Source of the DNA: Pseudohongiella acticola
GTDB taxonomy: Bacteria > Pseudomonadota > Gammaproteobacteria > Pseudomonadales > Pseudohongiellaceae
Assembly: GCF_001758195.1 (NCBI RefSeq)
Contig: NZ_MASR01000001.1
Location: forward strand, 310,001 to 374,000
Direction: 5' to 3'
DNA: 64,000 bases
Positions 57,859-63,974 of the stretch are shown piece after piece. Both the position numbers and the translations under genes were made by a program. The notes under the pieces were generated by a model, which was given only the letters and a program-made list of their open reading frames with translations, was not told the origin of the DNA and did not search any database. Positions within the stretch are counted from its first letter, which is position 1; each line of letters starts with the position of its first letter.

Positions 57859-58554
57859 TTACAGCATGGATTCACGCTTTTTATTTACCATGGCCAGTAT
57901 CTGACTGACCACTTCCGGGATGCTCATCCGGGTTGTATCGACGACGATGGCATCATCAGCCGGTCGCAGTGGCGCAACCGCCCTGCTACTGTCCCGAGCA
58001 TCACGCGCATTGATATCCGCTAAAAGGTCGCCGATATTAACATCAATACCCTTTGCAATCAACTGCTTATATCGCCGATCTGCACGCTCTTGCGCAGACG
58101 CTGTCAAAAACACTTTCTGCAGTGCATCAATAAACACCACAGTGCCCATGTCGCGCCCATCCGCAACAAGGCCCGGTGCCTGCCGGAACGCTCTCTGGCG
58201 CAGCAATAGCGCTTCCCTGACCGCCGGCAGCGCCGCAACGACGGAAGCCATGGCGCCCGCTTCTTCATGGCGTATATGCGCTGACACCTCTTCGCCCTGC
58301 AGCCAGACGCTGTCGTCGCTACCGGTACCAAAACGAATGTCCAGCGCCGGGACCAGTGCTGCCACTCGCGGTTCGTCTTCCAGTGCTACCGCACTGCGCC
58401 TGGCAGCCAGCGCCACTATTCTGTAAAGCGCCCCGCTGTCCAGGTAGTGCCAGCCCAAAGCAGACGCCAGCAAACGACTGACCGTCCCCTTGCCTGCGCC
58501 ACCAGGCCCGTCGATTGCCAATACGGGAACCGCATCGCCCTGAGTCTCAGTCAT
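57859..58554 (-). CDS. cmk: Cytidylate kinase
   Basis: 231 residues. Phosphorylates CMP and dCMP with ATP. P-loop IDGPGGAGKGTVSRLLA, YLDSGALYRIVALAA and GRDMGTVVFIDALQKVFLTAS are conserved; RRYKQL and late DDAIVVDTTRMSIPEV follow. It ends the gyrA-pheA-tyrA-cmk run (31-base gap after tyrA) and is followed by rpsA, as in most Proteobacteria. Confidence 0.96.
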   Translation of the reverse strand: MTETQGDAVPVLAIDGPGGAGKGTVSRLLASALGWHYLDSGALYRIVALAARRSAVALEDEPRVAALVPALDIRFGTGSDDSVWLQGEEVSAHIRHEEAGAMASVVAALPAVREALLLRQRAFRQAPGLVADGRDMGTVVFIDALQKVFLTASAQERADRRYKQLIAKGIDVNIGDLLADINARDARDSSRAVAPLRPADDAIVVDTTRMSIPEVVSQILAMVNKKRESML

Positions 58555-58585: not shown

Positions 58586-60478
58586 TCATGATGTTCGCTC
58601 CAGCGCTAACCCAAAGCCCAGTTTCTGCAATTGGGCGAGTAACCCCGGATATTTGTCGACAAATGCGGCAAACCCGGTCAGTTCAAGCCGGCCCGATACT
58701 CGCTGCGCGAGCACGATGCATAACAAGGTGAATTCAGGGTCATTGCGACAGGCCAGCACACCCGATGCCAGCAGCGAGCGCGATACGGTAATGACGTCGT
58801 CCGTCCATTCAATGTTTGCACCAAGCGCCTGCCATGCTGTGATCGCGCCCGTTATACGGGCATTGTCGGCCAGATTGGCAACTCGCAGGCAGGTTTTACC
58901 GTCCGCCAGCATTCCGGCGACAATATAACCCAGAACCTGTTCCTCAACCGCTGCCAGCTTATTGCCCTCAGGCAACACATCGCCGGCGATGACGCTGAAA
59001 TCAAGCTCACAACTATCAAGCGCCGACGGTTTAACCAGTACATCCAGTAACGCTTGCCCAGAATCCTGATTGCTCATCAACTGCAAATCGGCGCCCATTT
59101 GCTGGAATGCCTGCAGCGGATGTTCATGGCCATCTGCGCCCGCATAGACACAACGCAGTGTCAGTCGTGACTCAGCGACACTGCTGGCAGCCAGCGCCAG
59201 TGCCAGTATGACAAAATCATTAGCCGGCAATTCAGTGCCTGGCGACAAGGGCCGGTTATTGGTTGTTTGCTCAGCCTCGCAACCCTGACCCGCTACCAAA
59301 TCAGCGTCCGGCTCGCTACCATAAACAGTCACACTGGCTTGCTCGGGGCCAACCACAGGCACGCCGGCAGCCCGCAAGGCCTGAATCAGCGCCAGAGTCT
59401 CGCCGTCCTCTGGAATGCCACGCAACAACGTGACCGCATCGCGACAGGCAGCGTCCTGCAAGTATTGCCGGGCCGTATCTACTGACGCAGCGGCCCTGAA
59501 TTCACCCTGTAACGACAGACTGGGGCGGCATACCAGGGAGCCAGTGTCCTGGGAATGCTCCGCGAACACGCGAGGTTTAGTCTCGGGCTTTTGAAATCGT
59601 TGATAGAATTCGTCTCTAACGTGTTTCGCACGGGAGAATTCCCGGGTCATTGCAGCGCCATCAGCACGTAGTAGAACCGATCGCATTTTCTGCAAAGACT
59701 CAATATAGGCATCAAGTATATCAACCGTTGCCTGTGAGTTAGCGAGAAAAATATCTCGCCACATGACCGGGTCACTGGAGGCGATACGGCTGAAATCAGC
59801 AAACCCGCCAGCAGCATAATCGAAAACCTGCTGCACACGGTCCGGTTCGCTGATGCTGTCTACCAAAGTATTCACCAGGGCAAAGGCCAGCAGGTGTGGC
59901 AGGTGGCTGGTGCCTGCGAGTACGCGGTCATGACGCTCCGCACTCATGGCATGAATGTCCGCACCCAGACACTGCCACAAGGCCATGACCGTGCGCACTG
60001 CATCAGTATCATTATCGGGTTGAGGAGTGAGAATGACCTTGCGCTTATCAAACAGGTCTGCACGGGATGCGGGGTAGCCACTACGCTCGGAACCCGCAAT
60101 CGGGTGTCCAGGCACAAAGCGACAAGCCCTTGCCCTCAGCACCTGCCGTGCATCCGCCACCACATTTCCTTTTACGCTGGCGGCATCGGTAATGATGACG
60201 CTGTCATCGACCAGCTCAATGAGCTGTTCAAGGATGGCTCGCACCGACTGGGTCGGTACTGTGATCATGATTAAATCAGCTTCCGGTGCCAGCGTGGCAA
60301 GGTCGGTGGCGTAGGCATGGATACTGCCATCCAGCATGGCGGTGTGCAGTACGGTTTCATCACGGCCGACAGCAAGTATGCGCTGGCATGCATTGCTCGC
60401 GGCCAGTCCCCGGGCAATCGAGCCGCCAATCAGACCCAGCCCGACAATAAGAACGGTTTTATTCTTGAGCAGCGTCAT
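58586..60478 (-). CDS. tyrA: Prephenate dehydrogenase fused to a degenerate EPSP-synthase domain
   Basis: 630 residues. Residues 1-296 are a TyrA dehydrogenase: NAD site VGLGLIGGSIA (Gly13, Gly15, Gly18), GHPIAGSERSG (124-134) and the substrate histidine region SHLPHLLAF. Residues about 318-626 align with EPSP synthase (AroA), as in the Pseudomonas TyrA-AroA fusion (about 746 aa), but the region is about 100 residues short. The GDKSISHR segment reads AASVDTARQ, the GNSGT/RPM/QVKS part is missing, KESDR reads LADNARI, and the HGDHRIA segment reads CRNDPEF. So it can make 4-hydroxyphenylpyruvate precursors but very unlikely EPSP. A working aroA must exist elsewhere. The frame is intact and there are no stops. 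Confidence 0.9.
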   Translation of the reverse strand: MTLLKNKTVLIVGLGLIGGSIARGLAASNACQRILAVGRDETVLHTAMLDGSIHAYATDLATLAPEADLIMITVPTQSVRAILEQLIELVDDSVIITDAASVKGNVVADARQVLRARACRFVPGHPIAGSERSGYPASRADLFDKRKVILTPQPDNDTDAVRTVMALWQCLGADIHAMSAERHDRVLAGTSHLPHLLAFALVNTLVDSISEPDRVQQVFDYAAGGFADFSRIASSDPVMWRDIFLANSQATVDILDAYIESLQKMRSVLLRADGAAMTREFSRAKHVRDEFYQRFQKPETKPRVFAEHSQDTGSLVCRPSLSLQGEFRAAASVDTARQYLQDAACRDAVTLLRGIPEDGETLALIQALRAAGVPVVGPEQASVTVYGSEPDADLVAGQGCEAEQTTNNRPLSPGTELPANDFVILALALAASSVAESRLTLRCVYAGADGHEHPLQAFQQMGADLQLMSNQDSGQALLDVLVKPSALDSCELDFSVIAGDVLPEGNKLAAVEEQVLGYIVAGMLADGKTCLRVANLADNARITGAITAWQALGANIEWTDDVITVSRSLLASGVLACRNDPEFTLLCIVLAQRVSGRLELTGFAAFVDKYPGLLAQLQKLGFGLALERTS

Positions 60479-60481
60479 GGC

Positions 60482-61348
60482 TCAGACCCGGGCTCTGGGA
60501 TAAGAACCGAGGTTCTTGATTTTGACAGCTCGGCCAGCGAGTTTGCCGAACACGTTTTTGACGGCATCGTCCTGCATGTGGCCTTCAAAATCGACAAAAA
60601 ACACATAGGACCACATGCTGTCACGGGCTGGACGCGTTTCGATTCGGGTCAGGCTAACCTGAAAATCATCAAACGGCTCAAGCACCCTGAATAAGGCGCC
60701 TGGCTTGTTCTCGGTGTAGACCAGAATGGACGTTTTGTCCTGTCCGGTCGATACCCCTGCTACCTGATGTTCAGTTCCGAGCGCAGCATGCTCGCGCGCC
60801 ATCACCAGAAAACGGGTGGTGTTGTCCTGCCGGTCCTGGATTCGGTCAGCGACCACTGTCAGGTCAAAAAAACGGGCCGCAACCTCCCCGGCAATCGCTG
60901 CCGTCGCTGGGTCATCAGCCGCCAGGCGCGCCGCTTCTGCATTGCTGCTGACCTCACATAGCTCCATGTCGGGATAATGTGTGCGCAGCCAGAGTCGGCA
61001 TTGGCCAAGGGACTGTTTGTGCGACACGATGCGCCTGACTTCAGACAGTCGCGCGGGGTCTTTCAACAGGAGATTGTGTTCAATAGGCAAATAAATTTCC
61101 CCGACAATCGTCAGGGACGTATCTATCAGACAATCCTGAGTGCTGTTGACGGCACCTTCAGTGGAATTTTCCACCGGCACAACACCAAAACCGGCATTGC
61201 CCGCCTCGACTTCCAGAAAAACGTCGTCGATATTTGCCACGCTCAGGCGCTCTTGGGCATCGCTGTGGCCAAAAAACCTGTCTACTGCCGCATGTGAGAA
61301 GGTACCCGGCGGACCCAGAAATGCAATCCGGTCAGGCACCTCACTCAT
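60482..61348 (-). CDS. pheA: Prephenate dehydratase (no chorismate mutase domain)
   Basis: 288 residues from the ATG at 61348 with GAGG six bases ahead; its start overlaps the gyrA end by 8 bases. The PDT domain begins [21 protein letters not shown] and includes [17 protein letters not shown] and the catalytic DNTTRFLVM. The C-terminal ACT domain ([36 protein letters not shown]) would give phenylalanine feedback. The AroQ chorismate mutase domain of P-proteins (about 90 N-terminal residues) is absent. tyrA begins 4 bases downstream. Confidence 0.94.
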
Positions 61349-63974
61349 CATCAGCCTCGCCGCTTTGCGGCTTATTTTCGACGACCGCATGTTCTGATAC
61401 GTCGCCTTCAATCACATCCTCGACGACATCGTCAGGCAACTCATCGGCGGCATCAGCGACCGGCTCAACACCCACCAGCAGCTCGTCTTTCTTGAGCTTG
61501 ATCAGCCGTACGCCCTGTGTGTTTCGGCTAAGCACTGACACTTCATCCACGCGGATGCGTACCAGTGTGCCTTTATTGGAGATCAGCATGATCTGGCCGC
61601 CATCTGCCACCTGAACCGCTCCGACCAGCGAGCCATTGCGTTCACTGGTCTGCATGCCGATGACACCCTGGCCGCCACGGCCATAAACAGGGAATTCAGC
61701 AACATCGGTTCGCTTGCCATAACCATTTTCACTGACCGTCAGCACCTGTTCGCCTTCTTCAGGAATGATCAACGCTATCATTTCCTGGCCCGGCGCCAGG
61801 CGGATACCGCGCACCCCGCGGGCTGTCCGGCCCATGGTGCGCACGCCAGCTTCATTAAACCGGAGCACCTTGCCGCCGCTACCAAACAACATGATGTCGC
61901 GCTGGCCATCGGTCAGTGCAGTGCCTACCAGGCGATCGCCCTCGTCCAGTTCAATGGCTCGCAGGCCCACACTGCGTGGACGAGAGAAACTTGTCAGGGA
62001 GGTCTTTTTAACCGTACCCATGGCGGTTGCCATGAAGATGAAATAACCCTCAGTGTATTCGCGTATCGGCAACATGCTGGTGATTCGCTCACCTTCTTCC
62101 AATGGCAGAATATTGACCAGAGGACGCCCCCGCGATGCGCGGCTGGCCAGCGGGATATTGAATACACGCAGCCAGTAAACTTTGCCGGTGCTGCTGAAGC
62201 ACAACAGGGTATCGTGACTGCTGGCAATCAACAGGTGCTCGACCACATCTTCATCTTTCACGGCAGCCGCTGCTTTACCCATGCCGCCGCGACGCTGGGC
62301 GTGATAATCGGTCAGTGGCTGCGATTTGGCATAACCACTTCGTGAAATCGTGACCACACGGTCTTCCTCGGATATGAGGTCCTCCATGCTCAGGTCCAGC
62401 TGCGATCCGACAATTTCGGTGCGGCGCTTGTCGCCATAATTGTTGCGCACCAGGTTGAGCTCTTCCCGCATTACTTCGAACAGGCGAACATCACTGCCCA
62501 GAATCTCAAGAAAGTCCGCAATTTGTTGCAGCAAATCCTTGTAATCATTGATAAGTTTCTCGTGCTCCAGACCCGTCAGGCGGTGCAGACGCAGATCCAG
62601 AATGGCTTGTGCCTGAGCGGGAGACAGATAGTACTCCTCGCCTTTCAGGCCAAATTCAACCGGTAATTCTTCCGGCCGGCACGAATCCGCACCGGCCTCG
62701 CCCAACATGGCCAGGACGCTGGTCGACAGCCACGAACGTGCAAGCAGCTTTTCTTTTGCTTCTGCCGAACTGGGCGACTCCTTGATAAGCTGGATGACTG
62801 CATCAATATTGGCCAGTGCGACCGCCAGACCTTCCAGAATATGGCCTTTTTCGCGGGCCTTGCGCAGCAGATAGATGGTCCGGCGTGTGACCACTTCCCG
62901 GCGGTGACGGATAAAAGACTGCAGTATTTCTTTCAGGTTCAGCAGCTTCGGCTGACCATCTACCAGCGCCACCATGTTAATGCCAAACACCGATTGCATC
63001 TGGGTCTGGGCATACAGGTTATTCAGCACCACTTCACCAACTTCTCCACGGCGAAGCTCTATCACCACGCGCAAACCGTCTTTGTCCGATTCGTCACGCA
63101 GTTCCGTGATGCCTTCTATCTTCTTTTCCTTGACCAATTCGGCAATTTTTTCCACCAGCCGCGCCTTGTTCAGCTGATAGGGTATTTCCGTGATGATAAT
63201 GGTGGGCTTGTTGCTCTTTTCATCTTCGATGATTTCCGCGCGTGCACGCATGTAGATGCGGCCACGACCGGTTTTGTAGGCTTCGACAATGCCAGCCCGG
63301 CCATTAATGATGGCCGCCGTGGGGAAATCAGGGCCCTTGATATGCTCCATCAGATCATCAATGGAGATATCCTCGTCATCCATCAACGCCAGGCAGGCAT
63401 CCACAACCTCCGTCAGGTTGTGAGGCGGAATATTGGTTGCCATGCCGACAGCGATGCCCGAGGAGCCGTTTACCAGCAGATTGGGAACCTGTGTCGGGAA
63501 AACATCGGGAATACGTTCGGTGCCATCATAGTTGTCGGAGAAATCAACCGTTTCCTTGTCCAGATCTGCCATCAGATCGTGGGCGATTTTGGCCATGCGA
63601 ATTTCGGTGTAACGCATTGCTGCAGCCGAATCACCGTCTATCGAGCCAAAGTTACCCTGGCCATCAACCAGCGGGTAACGCAGGGAGAAGTCCTGTGCCA
63701 TACGTACGATGGTGTCATAAACAGCAGAATCGCCATGTGGATGGTATTTACCGATAACATCACCGACCACACGAGCGGACTTTTTGTAGGGCTTGTTCCA
63801 GTCGTTCGACAGCACGTTCATGGCAAACAGCACGCGTCTGTGTACAGGCTTGAGCCCATCCCTGACATCCGGTAACGCACGACCAACAATTACGCTCATG
63901 GCGTAGGCAAGGTAGGATTCACGCATCTCGCTTTCGAGCGAAACAGGCGATATCTGGTTTGTAGATTCCGTCAT
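61341..63974 (-). CDS. gyrA: DNA gyrase subunit A
   Basis: 877 residues, complete. GyrA breaks and rejoins DNA in negative supercoiling. The catalytic tyrosine is Tyr122 ([12 protein letters not shown]). The quinolone-resistance region [17 protein letters not shown] has Ser83 and Asp87, the susceptible residues in E. coli numbering. The C-terminal pinwheel includes the GyrA box [10 protein letters not shown], and the tail is acidic ([14 protein letters not shown]). It is the first gene of the gyrA-pheA-tyrA-cmk run. The promoter lies beyond the window edge. Confidence 0.98.

Follow-up and report, generated by a model that had tools for sequence, protein, structure and literature searches.

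The window analysed here, a 64,000-nucleotide stretch of the Pseudohongiella acticola genome, carries a run of minus-strand genes in the order gyrA, pheA, tyrA, cmk and rpsA. pheA, tyrA and cmk were named from Pfam matches, gyrA and rpsA by eye from the list of open reading frames. tyrA codes for a 630-residue protein in which prephenate dehydrogenase (TyrA) is followed by a degenerate remnant of EPSP synthase (AroA). The features of the locus are as follows.

57859..58554, minus strand: cmk, cytidylate kinase (Pfam), the next gene downstream, starting 31 bases after the stop codon of the fused gene
58586..60478, minus strand: the whole gene, TyrA fused to a degenerate AroA domain; 630 amino acids plus stop, open throughout
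59954..60400, minus strand: TyrA nucleotide-binding domain, residues 27-175 (Pfam PDH_N, E 1.5e-29; omega of residues 1-180, 0.057)
59642..59944, minus strand: TyrA dimerisation domain, residues 179-279 (Pfam PDH_C, E 3.3e-25)
59321..59542, minus strand: remnant part 1, residues 313-386, putative first repeat unit of the EPSP-synthase N-lobe with its motifs replaced (alignment; omega 0.124)
59231..59320, minus strand: deletion scar, residues 387-416, about 30 variable residues (alignment; omega 0.541 over 19 codons; low pLDDT)
58589..59230, minus strand: remnant part 2, residues 417-630, putative EPSP-synthase C-lobe, catalytic residues lost (profile match, fold prediction, alignment; omega 0.141 and 0.159)
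60482..61411, minus strand: pheA, prephenate dehydratase with an ACT domain (Pfam), just upstream

The TyrA half is complete. PDH_N and PDH_C score 103 and 88.8 bits, above their cut-offs of 26.5 and 22, as expected of a prephenate dehydrogenase, which occupies residues 27-279. This is also the sole above-cut-off PDH_C match in the genome. The clean reading frame noted in the original prediction is real, as the 58586-60478 frame has no internal stop.

The pheA reading frame overlaps gyrA, and its true start may be internal. pheA of gammaproteobacteria usually carries a chorismate mutase domain, which the pheA of the window lacks; the one CM_2 match of the genome is located elsewhere (G000:C1:2591302-2591535).

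Identity and predicted fold of the C-terminal domain

Pfam found neither EPSP_synthase (PF00275, at E<=10) nor an ACT domain in the C-terminal part. The NCBIfam aroA model TIGR01356 matched it weakly (E 3e-5, 23 bits against a cut-off of 287.25), so that it stays below the curated cut-offs of both AroA families. The C-terminal part also matched PRK14806, the model of TyrA-AroA fusions (E 2.2e-15); the protein scores 402.9 bits with this model, against a cut-off of 902 for bifunctional fusions with both halves intact. A profile built from six homologues matched the Acinetobacter EPSP synthase 5buf (E 3.3e-12). These matches bear out the fusion of TyrA to a vestigial EPSP-synthase domain proposed in the original prediction, and the C-terminal part is, judged by its sequence, a degenerate member of this family, related weakly but clearly. 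It shares with the bifunctional proteins (PRK14806/NF011381) the architecture, the ancestry and an intact TyrA half, but from its AroA half the active site and most of the N-lobe are gone; it differs from EPSP synthases proper (PF00275, TIGR01356) in its scores below the family cut-offs and in the loss of substrate residues.

When the protein is aligned with an intact relative from the same family (G020), residue 386 pairs with position 96 of the relative's C-terminal part and residue 417 with position 253. The 30 poorly alignable residues between these two stand against about 155 positions in intact relatives. AroA had been expected to align at both ends with its middle third absent. The gap is real, but the missing part is better described as the last two of the three repeat units which we take the N-lobe to contain. 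Likewise, the C-terminal 310 residues assigned to the remnant are AroA-related, but the remnant proper begins near residue 313, residues 294-312 having a pLDDT under 50 in the full-length model.

The end motifs are replaced as predicted. In what we take to be the E. coli numbering of the 21 substrate-site positions, K22/S23/R27 became V/D/Q, K340/E341 became A/D and H385/R386 became P/E. Ten of the 21 positions fall inside the deletion, one is a gap and only one of the remaining ten, Arg344, is kept in the alignment. The remnant is apparently catalytically dead. Catalytic residues at shifted positions, the finding named in advance as speaking against the prediction, were searched for in a multiple alignment of the remnant, stand-alone AroA proteins and intact fusions; there were none.

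The proposed comparison of the predicted structure with EPSP synthases was carried out. The model of the remnant has a pLDDT of 74.4 (mostly 85-96 in the C-terminal half), and EPSP synthases are its top structural matches. It retains one N-lobe unit and the C-lobe, a partial fold according to the prediction alone, which suggests that the remnant may still fold. A model of the whole protein came out poor (pLDDT 64.8, pTM 0.45), with no defined packing of TyrA against the remnant, and was dropped as a guide to this packing.

A separate AroA and the fate of the fused domain in relatives

With the fused domain dead, the original prediction required a separate functional aroA. A genome search revealed two other PF00275 genes, one being murA by sequence and the other coding for a 442-residue AroA. 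The latter reaches 471.8 bits with TIGR01356 (cut-off 287.25) and has all 21 substrate positions, so the expected separate aroA is there. It is about 30% identical to AroA of the fused lineage, and the deepest split of the AroA tree separates the two, which indicates another lineage, foreign to the fused AroA.

The separate AroA is present in all 15 genomes of the marine genus Pseudohongiella (in two pieces in G006). In the family, foreign AroA was found in 20 of 35 genomes: 15 of Pseudohongiella, four of sister genus g5 and one of g7. In Pseudohongiella and g5 the fused domain has degenerated or been lost (19 genomes; the fused gene was not recovered from G006), and the 15 genomes without foreign AroA have only native AroA above the cut-off, fused or adjacent, intact in all of them. 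G020 is the one family genome with both foreign and native AroA. We set it aside as a transitional two-AroA state, given a contamination of 7% and a stand-alone AroA that clusters apart from those of Pseudohongiella. A single gain of foreign AroA shared by Pseudohongiella and g5 is plausible; the tree gives it no support, with AroA of G012, G008 and G007/G009 falling outside in a short search that left 13 of 33 inner branches open.

Comparison with close relatives, another proposed check, found the fused gene as one open reading frame in 13 of the 15 Pseudohongiella genomes (593-636 residues with the starts chosen), and the alignment places the same deletion in all 13. In G005 the gene is divided over two contigs; G006, 72% complete, has no match to it. 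In genus g5, AroA is absent from the locus and TyrA is joined directly to cytidylate kinase in all 13 genomes examined out of 14, four by reading the sequence and nine by BLAST (one of these also by Pfam). These loci are L018, L019, L021, L023 and L158-L166; in an NCBIfam scan of L166, none of the matches at E<=1e-20 was to a TyrA-Cmk model, and we found no paper on such a fusion in the open-licence literature.

At the level of the order, the PRK14806 fusion scores above cut-off in 245 of 391 sampled genomes. Thirty-seven fusion-less genomes were hand-picked by E-value, as a non-exhaustive set, and 32 of them have a short TyrA frame (287-371 residues) and a separate AroA, adjoining tyrA in three. 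In four others (G092, G133, G167, G251) the genes are split, missing or different. In the last, G376, the AroA domain behind TyrA is in frame and of full length but degenerate (L175, 2085-4289), and there is a separate AroA as well (L174). Only two of the 21 substrate positions match in this domain (S169, R386) against at least 16 in intact fusions, and it still scores 51 bits in Pfam; G376 is a single genome with no congeners in the sample.

Other arrangements were also seen. Three examined loci of genus g4 (L170, L171, L172) carry a triple PheA-TyrA-AroA fusion in an open frame of 1048-1075 residues, and seven g4 genomes have open frames of 1048-1085 residues. In genus g3 a PheA-TyrA fusion (open frame of 580-612 residues) is followed by a separate native AroA in all three loci examined (L167, L168, L169). 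G219, G255, G288 and G303 (family f21, genus g57) have an intact TyrA-AroA fusion and a second, different AroA, with a best match of about 108-117 bits to PRK14806. This two-AroA state is possibly a stage preceding the loss of the fused domain.

Selection on the remnant

Pairwise codon models gave remnant omegas of 0.385, 0.130, 0.158 and 0.180 in G004-G010, G007-G009, G011-G003 and G002-G001, the four pairs in which the dS of the remnant stays below 2; the other ten pairs are largely saturated and their omegas mean little. The likelihood ratios against omega 1 were 16.1, 122.3, 123.8 and 102.7 in the same order, and the TyrA omegas 0.106, 0.057, 0.067 and 0.031. Over the 13-taxon tree (IQ-TREE) TyrA had an omega of 0.060 and the remnant one of 0.164, so the constraint on the remnant is 2-3 fold weaker. 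By segment, omega was 0.057 and 0.059 in TyrA, 0.124 in the first repeat unit, 0.541 in the scar and 0.141 and 0.159 in the C-lobe. The scar, measured over 19 codons, behaves as an internal relaxed control. Simulated neutral change would leave 4.7-11.4 stops per remnant at the four divergences, with a probability of none of at most 0.0055; none were seen.

The separate AroA has an omega of 0.028-0.070 and a lower dS than the remnant gene. When its dS is taken as the neutral yardstick, remnant dN amounts to 0.35, 0.74, 0.23, 0.42, 0.50 and 0.57 of it in six pairs. None of these ratios reaches 1, but by this measure the constraint is weak and far more relaxed. At four-fold sites, synonymous divergence of TyrA and the remnant is about equal in five of the six pairs. 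In G007-G009 (L014, L013) it climbs from about 0.20 before TyrA residue 200 to 0.45-0.68 beyond it, perhaps a recombination boundary.

In thirty remnant columns, at least 11 of the 13 genus members share one residue. The shared residues are mostly G, P, A and L, as expected of a fold and not of a binding site, and conserved polar residues are few (R369, D420, S437 and D580). Half of the 30 columns carry the residue of at least three of four intact fusions, and the other 15 are derived. All genus members have a hydrophobic residue in 45 of the 276 columns, compared with 0.01 such columns in shuffles; this control ignores relatedness. The same deletion and open frame in 13 genus members, the purifying selection and the predicted EPSP-synthase fold all agree with the proposed retention of the remnant.

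Possible origin and role of the remnant

A similar case has been described. According to Song et al. (2005; PMC1173090), P. syringae has a TyrA-AroF fusion (AroF standing for AroA) whose AroF has lost about 200 residues at the N-terminal region, together with an acquired, Agrobacterium-like stand-alone AroF; the authors considered that such a remnant might turn into a domain with a regulatory function. Pseudohongiella is alike in having a disrupted EPSP-synthase domain behind TyrA and an acquired stand-alone AroA, but this AroA differs in type from the Agrobacterium-like one. The P. syringae account, known here from that paper, covers one species and no selection test, whereas the Pseudohongiella deletion is genus-wide and the remnant is under purifying selection. 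TyrA-ACT proteins of the B. subtilis type also have a non-catalytic C-terminal extension on TyrA, of a different fold (PMC2954222); the remnant has no Pfam ACT domain. We found no paper on the Pseudohongiella case in the open-licence literature. New here are the genus-wide retention, the evidence of selection, the second degenerate case in G376 and the TyrA-cytidylate kinase fusion of the sister genus.

On balance, we lean towards the remnant being a non-catalytic structural module of TyrA, left after takeover by a foreign AroA and loss of N-lobe units. The starting point would be the TyrA-AroA fusion common in the order. A second AroA of unrelated lineage would have entered the genome and taken over EPSP synthesis, and, in the common ancestor of the genus, a single in-frame deletion would have stripped most of the N-lobe from the fused domain, whose active site could then decay. 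The left-over N-lobe unit and C-lobe may still fold and remain attached to the TyrA dimer; their retention is best explained if TyrA now depends on them for stability, solubility or assembly. Both the sequence of these events and TyrA's need for its tail are what we infer. The original prediction had suggested a structural or regulatory module of TyrA; the structural role fits better because conserved polar residues are so few. Sister genus g5, managing without the domain, is evidence against a structural role.

A serious rival, to which we give a smaller but real chance, is that the domain is useless and merely entrenched: an unfolded tail would harm TyrA and an internal stop would reduce transcription or translation of the essential cmk and rpsA genes downstream, so that only harmful changes are purged. 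The weaker constraint on the remnant than on TyrA, the prevalence of G, P, A and L among its conserved residues and the position of cmk (31 bases past the stop) and rpsA downstream on the same strand are all in keeping with this. Clean loss is, however, possible, as g5 removed the domain and joined TyrA to Cmk, and 32 of the 37 fusion-less genomes do with a short TyrA and a separate AroA, although some of them were maybe never fused.

We find it unlikely that the half domain is a regulatory or docking module, binding a pathway metabolite or a partner such as the replacement AroA and tuning TyrA. Purifying selection on the folded parts and the 15 derived, fixed residues would suit such a module, and the idea was raised for P. 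syringae by Song et al. (PMC1173090); against it, all ligand residues but one are lost and few conserved residues are polar. A tail in recent pseudogene decay, or an assembly error, is very improbable: similarity across the genus is low (18% identity between G012 and G014 in the remnant), but 13 separate genomes share the deletion, stops are absent and omega is well below 1. Least credible of all is EPSP synthase activity surviving through shifted residues or a partner, for which homology speaks, but with ten of 21 positions deleted, R344 alone kept among the rest and a full replacement AroA in the genome.

The favoured reading, a structural module of TyrA, illustrates a possible fate of one half of a fused enzyme made redundant by horizontal gene transfer. 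One family presents the outcomes side by side: the intact fusion, the dead in-frame domain of Pseudohongiella, and the excised domain of g5 with TyrA joined to the next gene. The presence of a TyrA-AroA fusion gene should not be taken to mean a working AroA. A genus-wide case also makes the one-species speculation of 2005 testable by truncation and kinetics. Finally, we speculate, with considerable doubt, that a dead half of EPSP synthase has come to serve TyrA as a functional accessory module, acting allosterically or docking the replacement AroA or another pathway enzyme, and that this route was taken repeatedly, in Pseudohongiella, G376 and P. syringae. If so, xenologous replacement inside a fusion gene would be a repeatable source of new regulatory domains.
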